A model generated the notes under the pieces. The model saw nothing but the letters and a program-made list of their open reading frames with translations, had not been told where the DNA came from and ran no database searches. A stretch of DNA of 37,666 bases from Mycoplasma sp. Its GTDB lineage: Bacteria; Bacillota_I; Bacilli_A; Mycoplasmatales; Metamycoplasmataceae. This document shows positions 11,449 through 30,651 of the stretch, piece after piece. The stretch is taken from the NCBI GenBank assembly GCA_014803855.1, contig JAAVAX010000006.1, forward strand, positions 40,512-78,177, in the 5' to 3' direction. How positions within the stretch are numbered: position 1 is the stretch's first letter; the number at the start of each line of letters is the position of its first letter. Both the position numbers and the translations under genes were made by a program.

Positions 11449-11715
11449 TTAATCAATTAATTTTAATTTAGATAGTTCTGATTTTAATTTTTCAATTGCT
11501 TGATCAGCATCTGCTCCATTAGCTTCAATAGTAATTTCATCATCTTTTTTAATTCCTAAAGCCATGATGTTCATAATTGATTTAGCATTTCCTTCTTTAC
11601 CTTTTGCAATGATTTTAATATCTGAAGTAAATGATGAAGCAATTTTTATCAATTCTGAAGCTGGTCTTGCATGTAATCCAATAGGATCAATAACTTTTGC
11701 TGTAAAACTTGCCAT
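11449..11715 (-). CDS. ptsH: Phosphocarrier protein HPr
   Basis: Carries phosphate from enzyme I to the sugar-specific EIIA components of the phosphotransferase system. The 88-residue protein has the active-site His in GLHARPAS (His about 15) and the regulatory serine region KSIMNIMALGIKKDD (Ser46), so it could also be phosphorylated by HPr kinase as in other Firmicutes-Mollicutes. AAAGGAAAT precedes the ATG and TATAAT lies at 11777-11772. It is transcribed alone, with a terminator downstream and the divergent tRNA-Leu upstream. Confidence 0.97.
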   Translation of the reverse strand: MASFTAKVIDPIGLHARPASELIKIASSFTSDIKIIAKGKEGNAKSIMNIMALGIKKDDEITIEANGADADQAIEKLKSELSKLKLID

Positions 11716-26909: not shown

Positions 26910-27305
26910 TTATATATTAAATATAATTTCAAATATCTTTTTAGAAGAAGAAAATATTCTTACTTCATATAAGGAATTTGTTTTTACCAATTTATATAAT
27001 TCATCATTATAAAAATTTATTCTATATATATTATTACCTTGATTTATAAATTCAACATCCTCTAGAAAAAATGTTTTTGATTCTAATGTAATTGATAAAT
27101 CTTTTTGAGTAGTTAAAAGATTTATATTTGATGTAGAAAACTTTAATGAAAAATTTTTATTTTGATCAACTTCTAGTATTGCATTGTTAATTTTTTTAAT
27201 TTCAACATTAAATAAAATTAATAGAAATATGAAAGATAAAAATATTAATACAAAAACAATAAGAAATATTTTTCAACTTAAATATTTATTTATTAAATAG
27301 CTCAC
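26910..27305 (-). CDS. Single-pass membrane protein coupled to the C39 ABC exporter
   Basis: 131 residues. The N-terminus is short and mildly basic, followed by one long hydrophobic helix (KIFLIVFVLIFLSFIFLLIL, about residues 12-32). The remaining 95 residues look extracytoplasmic and strand-rich, e.g. FSLKFSTSNINLLTTQKDLS and GNNIYRINFYNDELYKLV, with no cysteine. Start GTG at 27305 has AAGGAA at good spacing and lies inside the last codons of the exporter gene (20-base overlap), a sign of translational coupling. A Trp is UGA-coded. I do not recognise a family. A role as a reduced membrane-fusion-type partner of the exporter is only an inference from position and topology. Confidence 0.65.
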
Positions 27306-29322
27306 AATCTATTTCCTTCCCTTTATATAAATAATTTTCTCTATGTGAAACTTCAATAACTATTTTATTTTTCAAATGAATTCTTAATTGATCAAAAATC
27401 AATTTTAAATTATCTTGATCAATATTTTCAAAAGCTTCATCCAATAAAATGAGTGAGGGGTTAAATGAAAATAATTTCATCAATGTTACAAATTGTTTTT
27501 GACCTGATGATAGATTTTTTCCACCTTCCTCAATTTTGGTTGATAGTTTCACATCCATATTTTCAAATAAAGTTAGCAAATTATATTTCTCTATATTGCC
27601 TAATAATATGTCTGGATTATTTTTGTTGCTTGATATAAGAAATTCATAAACTGTTGCAGTAGGCAAATACTCATTATTAGATATATAACATACTTGTTCT
27701 CTTAGTGAATTGATATTATAATAATCTAGACTTTTGTTATTAAAACTTAAATTTTTAGAGAAAATTAAAGTAGATAATATTTTAATTAATGTTGATTTAC
27801 CAATGCTATTTTTACCAATTAAATTTATATTTGAATCTATTTGTAGATTCTTCACTAATATCTTTTTATTTGAATCATTATAATTAAATTCTAAATTTTC
27901 CATTTTAACACATTTTATAATGTCTATATTTTTTTGTTTATCATTGCTATTGCATTCATCAGATAACAAGAAAAAGCTATTAATGGTATCAATGTATTGT
28001 TTAATAATAGGCTTTTCAATAAATATGGATGTTACTTGATAAAATGCATTAATAAAAAAATTATAAATTGATATAAATATAAAAATCTGACCCATTGACA
28101 AATTATCTTTTCAGATTTGATTAATAGAAAATATTATTATCAAAAACATAAATGTTGTTTTAATAATTGATTGAACCATATAATATAAAAAACCTATATG
28201 TGACGATTTAATTTTATTCATTATTGATTTATTTAAAGAGTCATTGAAACTCTTGTCTAATATAGATTTTGTGTTTCCTATTTTATATTGATCAATTCCT
28301 TTGATGATATTTAGAAAAGAATTTTTAAAAAATAATGAGTGTTTAATATTTATGGTTTCCATCTCTTGAAATTTATTCTTAAATAAAAATGTTGTTATTA
28401 TTAATAAACCTGCTGACAAAAATGAAAATAAAAATATTTGTAAATTTAATATAACTAAAATGATAGTTGATATTAATAAACAAAATACTTGTGTAACCTG
28501 ACTAAATACATACTTAGTTTTAAATGAAGAAATTTGAGCTATAATTTCAACATTTTTTAGATGCATTGATTCATCAAAATGAATGATATTTATTCAATTA
28601 ACATCAGAGATTTTTTTAATATATTTTTCCAATAAAATTATCTGGTATTTGAGTTCTAATTTACTACTAATAAATTCTAAAGAAATGTTAAGAAAAATTT
28701 TTATAAGTGAAATAATAAGAAAAATAAATGATATTCAAATAAGTAAATTGAAATTATTTAATGGAGCTATTTGATCTAAAACTATCTTTATATAATATGT
28801 TCCTATAAATGTCAGTCCAAATATAATTAATGAAATAATGCTTAATCAAATATTTTCTTTGTAAAACTTTTTGTCCAATAGATCAATTTTACTAATTGAA
28901 TCATCTTTATATTTTTTATCCTTATTGCATAATATTACTATGTTGCAAAAAATCTTTTCAAATTTATCTAATGATATTTTTTGTTTACCCAATATTAGGT
29001 CATAATAAATGACATTATTTTTACTTGTAATTTTTTCTACAATAACATAATGAAAATAACTTTCATTTGTAATGATGGAAATAATTGGATTTTTTAATTT
29101 TAATTTTTTAAATGAATCAAAATTTCCTTTTAATACTTCTGACTTCATTCCAAATCTATTTATCAAATTAGATAATTCAAATATACTTATTCCATATTTA
29201 TTATAATTAACATCTTTTTTTAAATCAGATAATGTGATTCACTTATCATAAAAATACTTATACATTGTTTGTACAACAAAGACACCACAATCTAGTTTAT
29301 CAACTTGTGTATTATATTGCAT
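27286..29322 (-). CDS. Peptidase-containing ABC exporter (C39 bacteriocin/peptide type)
   Basis: 678 residues with three parts. The N-terminal C39 cysteine peptidase has TQVDKLDCGVFVVQTMY (Gln6, Cys12), FHYVIVEKI (His91) and VIYYDLILGK (Asp108), the full catalytic set. The middle (about 155-430) holds the membrane segments of an exporter. The ATPase has Walker A GKNSIGKS (503-510), LSSGQ (604-608), LILLDEAF and the switch His (SHREN); the Q-loop Gln appears to be Asn (CYISNNEYLP). The family removes a double-glycine leader and exports the peptide in one complex. UGA Trp codons divide it under the standard code. An extended -10 TGGTATAAT lies at 29378-29371, and the 131-residue gene overlaps its end. 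No GG-leader peptide is visible nearby. Confidence 0.92.
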
Positions 29323-29514: not shown

Positions 29515-30651
29515 ATGTCATTAAGTGAAAAAATAATTAACAATAATAAATTAAAATTTCTAAATTTTATATGTACTAGTAGAAGCGATTATCAACAACT
29601 TGATGAAAAAAAATTAAAAAAAGCTAAATTATTTAACTGAATGTATTTATCTATAATTTTTATTGCAATTGTAATTTCTTTTATTCCTCTATTTTTTATA
29701 TCTAGTGAAAATGAATTAGTTATTATGGATAGTAAATGAATGAGTGCTTTAAACATTATTGTTTTAATTATTCTTACCATTGATTATTTATTAAGATGAA
29801 TAACATATCCAATAAGAATCAAGCACAATTCTGTAAATCCATTGCTTTTTTTCATTTTTACTAGTAGTAGTATTATGATACTAGCTTCAATATCATCTGC
29901 TGTTCTATTTGTTACTGTATCTTTTTTACCAAATGACAAAGAATTAATAAAAGTGGCTAAAGCATTATCTGTTTTAAAAATATTTAGGTTCATTTTACTT
30001 TTAAACATAATACCATCATTCAAAATATTGACTGAAGTATTTATTAGAAGTAGATCAATTGTTTTTAACTTGTTATTGGTTCTTTTTTCATTTATATTTA
30101 TTTTTGCTCTAATTATATACTCAATTGAATATTCAGCCAATCCACAAATAAACAATTATAGTGATGCCTTATATTATTCATTTATAACAGTTTGTACAGT
30201 TGGATTTGGTGATATTGTTTGTGTTACAAATGAAGGGAGATTTTTATCAGTTATTTTGGGAATTTTAGGTTCAATAGCTTTTGCTATACCCTTTGGTATT
30301 GTTGTAGGTGCATTCAATGTTAAGATTAAAGAAAAATATAAAAATATTGATCAAATGGATGTTTATTCTACAACTACATTAGTGGAAAAAACATACTTAA
30401 AATTAAATAAGAACAGGAAAACAAAAAACAAATCAGCAACTATTATATTAAACAAAATTCTTAAAAAAGATTCTGATATATCTGAAAAAATAATAAGTTG
30501 TCTAGGTGGAAGTGACAACATTGAAGTATTTGAAGAAATTGACAATAAAAAAACAAAACTAGTTATTATTAATTCAAATAAAATTAATGAGCATAAACTA
30601 GATTTGTTACTAGAAATATTAGAAATTGGATATCAATACAATCACAATTAA
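29515..30651 (+). CDS. Voltage-sensor-type potassium channel with C-terminal EIIB-like domain
   Basis: 378 residues. Six membrane segments are visible, including an S4-like helix with regularly spaced charges (Lys146, Lys149, Lys155, Arg158 in LIKVAKALSVLKIFRFIL). The pore loop has the K+ filter TVGFGD (228-233), and the last helix is ILGILGSIAFAIPFGIVVGAF. After a basic linker, residues about 310-372 read like a PTS EIIB domain: ISCLGGSDNIEVFEE, then TKL and NKINEHKLDLLLEI, but without the phosphorylated Cys, and shortened at the end. In mycoplasmas such channels would serve K+ balance and membrane potential. Four or so Trp are UGA-coded, which hides the first 109 residues under the standard code. 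No ribosome site is seen. Its stop lies 3 nt from convergent rpmF. Confidence 0.88.

Follow-up and report, generated by a model that had tools for sequence, protein, structure and literature searches.

A mycoplasma potassium channel with a cysteine-less C-terminal domain of probable EIIB descent

The window, the whole 37,666-nucleotide stretch of DNA analyzed here, belongs to a Mycoplasma sp. assembly of 750 kb in 11 contigs (G000), whose nearest named relatives are assemblies labeled "uncultured Mycoplasma sp." It contains a complete open reading frame of 378 codons with a TVGFGD selectivity filter, exactly as described in the initial annotation, in which Trp-42, Trp-75, and Trp-95 are encoded by TGA under code 4 (Table 1). 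The encoded protein matches the Pfam families Ion_trans (E = 1.8e-21 over residues 39–269) and Ion_trans_2 (E = 3.3e-15), which together with the filter identifies it as a six-helix K+ channel. The closest relatives in the PDB are KCNQ channels, and the six helices and the TVGFGD-type filter are shared with KCNQ/Kv, KvLm, and Kch channels, of which the Kch type bears a cytoplasmic regulatory domain. Unlike these channels, the window protein has a charge-poor S4 and, in place of an RCK, CNBD, or T1 domain, an EIIB-like tail. The first description of the fourth helix as S4-like is a fair label, although alignment with KCNQ5 leaves it few gating charges. Only Arg-158, with Lys-155 and the upstream Lys-145 and Lys-148, lies near them; Arg-158 pairs with a KCNQ5 gating arginine, and the later S4 arginines stand opposite leucine, asparagine, and isoleucine, so that the regular arginine series of voltage-gated K+ channels is not present. 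Because S4 is arginine-poor, strong voltage sensing by the channel appears doubtful from its sequence. After S6, the linker contains an (S/T)xxEKxxxK segment common to most channels of the genus, tailed or tail-less.

Table 1. Features of the channel gene and of ptsH in the window
Feature	Residues	Position	Strand	Basis or remark
K+ channel gene with EIIB-like C-terminal domain	1–378	29515..30651	+	complete 378-aa ORF, TGA = Trp
Six-helix channel region	39–269	29629..30321	+	Pfam, KCNQ5 alignment
S4-like helix	145–172	29947..30030	+	KCNQ5 alignment
Selectivity filter TVGFGD	228–233	30196..30213	+	sequence
Charged linker after S6	271–306	30325..30432	+	alignments
C-terminal EIIB-like domain	307–378	30433..30648	+	profiles, AlphaFold
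Strand beta-0, no EIIB counterpart at that end	308–312	30436..30450	+	AlphaFold
Helix 1, counterpart of EIIB helix 1	321–329	30475..30501	+	AlphaFold, profile alignment
LGGSDNI motif	330–336	30502..30522	+	EIIB HMM alignment
Strands beta-1 and beta-2, site of the EIIB catalytic loop	336–343, 346–351	30520..30567	+	AlphaFold, HMM
Helix 2, just past KIN; counterpart of the EIIB KVDxxxLK helix	359–368	30589..30618	+	AlphaFold, HMM
Strand beta-3, final element	373–377	30631..30645	+	AlphaFold
ptsH (HPr, GLHARPAS present)		11449..11715	-	not adjacent to channel

The tail beyond the linker had been described as a shortened EIIB of the glucose type, with the motifs in the right order and the catalytic cysteine missing. 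This description holds, and the resemblance exceeds chance. LGGSDNI is followed by TKL (residues 347–349) and KINEHKL (residues 356–362), the first and last in the same order as in glucose-type EIIB (PF00367; E. coli PtsG EIIB, 1iba, 3bp3, 3bp8, and 1o2f), with which the tail shares LGGxxNI after helix 1, two strands, a KIN/KVD...L helix, and, as predicted, the alpha-beta-beta-alpha-beta order and spacing. The shortening is likewise real, in that the last strand and helix of EIIB (beta-4 and helix 3) are absent because only some 10 residues follow helix 2. The tail differs from EIIB also in its predicted added N-terminal strand and ferredoxin-like fold overall, and in its fusion to a channel. 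The phosphorylated cysteine followed by TRLR that marks PF00367 is not found; the arginines of TRLR are not retained in the window tail, and a cysteine at the catalytic position is missing from all four tails known (from G000 and the congeneric genomes G132, G133, and G134). The initial register, in which Asn/Lys occupies this position, is correct as to a residue other than cysteine and gives Lys-345, whereas the EIIB HMM gives Ile-342 instead. As judged from these residues, the known route of phosphate transfer is closed to the tail. The two glycines of the motif are present in G132 and gone in G133 and G134, NI is kept in all four, and six residues are invariant across the set.

Searched alone in Pfam, the window tail matched PTS_EIIB as the sole family, with an E-value of 0.042–0.049 and 13.5–13.7 bits over 14 residues. 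Because this match is short and below the curated cut-off for PF00367 (27 bits), we built EIIB profiles from mycoplasma sequences, comprising canonical PtsG-type domains and free cysteine-less proteins. In a six-frame search of G000, the free cysteine-less EIIB (3.7e-31) and the EIIB of PtsG (3.3e-27) came first and the window tail third (E = 2.9e-4), above a degenerate second EIIB of PtsG, EIIB′ (1.8e-3). The same search of 12 genomes of the genus at E ≤ 0.05 returned 31 true EIIBs, EIIB′, two tails, and one chance match, with the tail of G132, the nearest relative, at E = 4.4e-3. In the reverse direction, a profile built on the tails of G000 and G132 was searched against 135 genomes, and seven of the eight best non-self matches were EIIBs, either canonical with CATRLR or free and cysteine-less, aligned over about 40–50 profile positions starting at 19–23; the tail of G134 was also recovered (E = 1.7e-3). 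HHalign gave these two tails a probability of 85% against EIIB, which none of 300 column shuffles equaled. Relatedness to EIIB, which the initial annotation had proposed to check by profile, is thus significant in either search direction for G132 and the window protein, and the result it had named as fatal, the absence of EIIB profile hits from every homologue, was not obtained.

The signal is unevenly distributed over the tails. A large share of the EIIB score is due to LGGxxNI, which G133 and G134 lack, and their tails alone gave no significant similarity to EIIB by profile or HHalign. The four-tail profile reached 27% in HHalign against EIIB, likewise beating all shuffles; comparison of the four tails with a single EIIB sequence was uninformative, probably because the tails without GG dilute the profile. 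The stretch after the motif, taken by itself, ranked 52 (G000) and 35 (G132) against 13,943 real 75-residue tiles, some of which are EIIBs; the unmasked tile ranks are flattering because reading frames with a GG..N motif were omitted from the null set, and it is the whole-genome searches that test the relationship fairly. A PDB search with the two-tail profile returned no EIIB at E ≤ 10. Scanning the genome contigs with a single sequence found no relatives; an alignment query succeeded. Weak matches of the four-tail profile to 129-residue frames in genus g5 proved to be unrelated reading frames, and the tail is not a copy of EIIB′ of PtsG (HHalign probability 8%, through the motif only). One of the four tails matched LAGLIDADG_1 in Pfam (E = 0.0087), a single weak match that is possibly due to chance; homing endonucleases belong to the same fold class as EIIB.

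AlphaFold, given the G000 tail with all four sequences, predicted a beta-alpha-beta-beta-alpha-beta domain (pLDDT 87.4, pTM 0.75). Separate modeling of G133 and G134 only, which lack the GG motif, gave an identical order of elements (pLDDT 74.9), and therefore all four tails appear in these predictions to be a single domain. Foldseek matched both models to ferredoxin-like structures in the PDB, namely aspartokinase ACT, Lrp/AsnC RAM, PII-like, HMA, and designed ferredoxin folds, all at E > 0.001, and no EIIB was among the top 50 PDB matches of either. The alpha-beta-beta-alpha part of the model nevertheless sits where the EIIB HMM alignment places those elements, and five of the seven elements of the EIIB fold are predicted in order, with the last strand and helix absent and an extra strand at the N terminus. 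The EIIB fold is alpha-beta-beta-alpha-beta-beta-alpha with sheet order 1-2-4-3; in the ferredoxin-like order, 4-1-3-2, the first strand occupies the place of the fourth strand of EIIB, and thus the N-terminal strand of the tail would replace the missing C-terminal one. A circularly permuted EIIB is a hypothesis that fits the models. A predicted fold unrelated to EIIB had been named at the outset as counting against the idea, and the models go half of that way: the alpha-beta-beta-alpha-beta core is kept, in an apparently permuted and ferredoxin-like arrangement.

The initial annotation had suggested looking for the fusion in other mycoplasmas, and it recurs in three congeners besides G000, although in two of them (G133 and G134) the GG is lost and the similarity to EIIB is insignificant. 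Four of the 11 channels of the genus carry the tail and the other seven do not. The four carriers group together as a single clade when the tree is built on the channel core (SH-aLRT 93), and their distribution can therefore be explained by one gain, or else by a single loss in the sister group. The tail is not a general feature of mollicute channels, since those of other genera and families end differently. The channels of family f11 (L169 and L170), another mollicute family, have a different C-terminal extension (KLTRDQLWKKYRGLTKEEILNLL...). Over the whole reading frame the window channel is 66% identical to that of G132 and about 33–36% identical (whole alignment) to those of G133 and G134; the four filters agree in the threonine, both glycines, and the aspartate. 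In the channels of G134 (L082) and G133 (L083), S5 is separated from the pore helix by an insert of about 30–50 residues that lies on the outer side. The gene neighborhood of the channel is common to G000 and G132 only. An ABC exporter whose N-terminal part is C39-peptidase-like, named by eye, adjoins the channel (27286–29322, minus strand) and is also present next to it in G132.

G000 encodes PtsG (EIIC-EIIB-EIIA) and HPr. The ptsH gene, to which the initial annotation had pointed as context, lies 18 kb from the channel on the opposite strand and forms no operon with it, and the neighborhood of the channel holds no PTS genes. PtsG of G000 (contig C1; L001:577-3096, minus strand) and of G132 (L055) have the extra degenerate EIIB′, of about 80 residues and with no conserved catalytic cysteine, in the interval between EIIB and EIIA; it is missing from PtsG of G133 and G134 and from EIICBA-type proteins in three further congeners. 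A free 123-residue protein (G000:C6:2268-2639; L002:1348-1719), found in most of the genus, consists of one membrane segment and an EIIB-like domain in which threonine replaces the catalytic cysteine. Such free proteins resemble the tail as a cysteine-less module beside a membrane segment and are the closest to the window tail by profile; they differ from it in being complete EIIBs by sequence and in having one membrane segment and no channel. MG_129/MPN_268 is, we presume, the counterpart of this protein. MG_129 is described as an orphan EIIB for which binding to FtsY was predicted, and a single cross-link also connects MG_129/MPN_268 with FtsY (PMC13047044).

Taken together, these data incline us, with about even confidence, to regard the tail as a dead, remodeled EIIB-derived module for binding or assembly. 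Its EIIB status is probably one of descent and not of family membership. Of the two parts of this explanation, descent is the more secure, and the docking role is our inference. The same models could instead describe an independent ferredoxin-like regulatory domain of the ACT, RAM, or PII-like kind that binds a small ligand and gates the channel, LGGxxNI having arisen by convergence. Such domains often bind ligands and oligomerize, both models match their structures and share their predicted beta-alpha-beta-beta-alpha-beta order, and the more distant tails lack GG. What the tails do not share with them is sequence: at E ≤ 10 none of the four matched an ACT, RAM, HMA, or PII family in Pfam, whereas PTS_EIIB matched two, and EIIB dominates the whole-genome searches in both directions, which makes an independent origin rather unlikely. 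Nor do we give much weight to a fast-drifting extension of little function, such as a fragment of EIIB left by an accidental fusion. Between G000 and G132, 69% of tail residues differ compared with 24% in the core. The dN, about 0.7 compared with 0.17, favors such drift, as does the absence of the tail from seven congeners; yet in four species, at only about 20–35% tail identity, the tail stays in frame and keeps its predicted fold, and third codon positions are still the most variable, so that we judge drift to be quite improbable.

A special case of the favored explanation is the proposal of the initial annotation that K+ flux is tied to sugar uptake, which we take here to mean that the dead tail would dock the EIIA of PtsG or another PTS protein according to its phosphorylation. 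The presence of PtsG and HPr in the genome would permit this, and the regulator Mlc is a binding partner of EIIB-Glc in E. coli (compare the EIIB chain in PDB entry 3bp8). There is also a precedent among K+ transport proteins, as unphosphorylated EIIA-Ntr (PtsN) of E. coli binds TrkA, KdpD, and YcgO (PMC13104625). Against such coupling, the former active-site loop is unconserved among the four tails and contains insertions, the channel is unlinked to PTS genes, and some congeners with PTS EIIBs have tail-less channels. On balance, we consider such coupling improbable.

Under the reading of the tail as a remodeled EIIB-derived module, each subunit of a presumably tetrameric channel would bear a small cytoplasmic domain derived from the EIIB of a glucose-type PTS. 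A single acquisition by the common ancestor of the clade, whose members are uncultured Mycoplasma-like species, would have introduced the domain, which would then have lost the last strand and helix of EIIB, its N-terminal strand filling the vacant place in the sheet to give the ferredoxin-like fold. Four copies would hang below the pore on the charged linker. Given the loss of the cysteine and the ferredoxin-like rebuilding, the tail probably binds or assembles and does not relay phosphate; it would most likely be a docking or oligomerization module, and a partner bound there may set the assembly, placement, or opening of the channel. Candidate partners would be proteins of the PTS or the molecules to which the free cysteine-less EIIBs of mycoplasmas bind. 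A fixed partner is less likely, because the tail diverges fast and only the six residues are invariant.

In the literature searched, which covers subscription journals scantily, we found no description of an EIIB-related domain on an ion channel. If the descent is true, a PTS domain has given up phosphotransfer and taken on a new role as the tail of a channel, and the remodeling of its fold can be seen across four related species. Because G000 holds two more cysteine-less EIIB modules besides the tail, our data suggest that dead EIIB domains are recycled in mycoplasmas for binding. Should the channel in fact be gated through a dead, circularly rearranged EIIB that senses how the sugar phosphotransferase system stands, which we hold to be improbable, it would provide a direct molecular link from sugar uptake to K+ flux and a natural case of an EIIB turned into a ferredoxin-like sensor.
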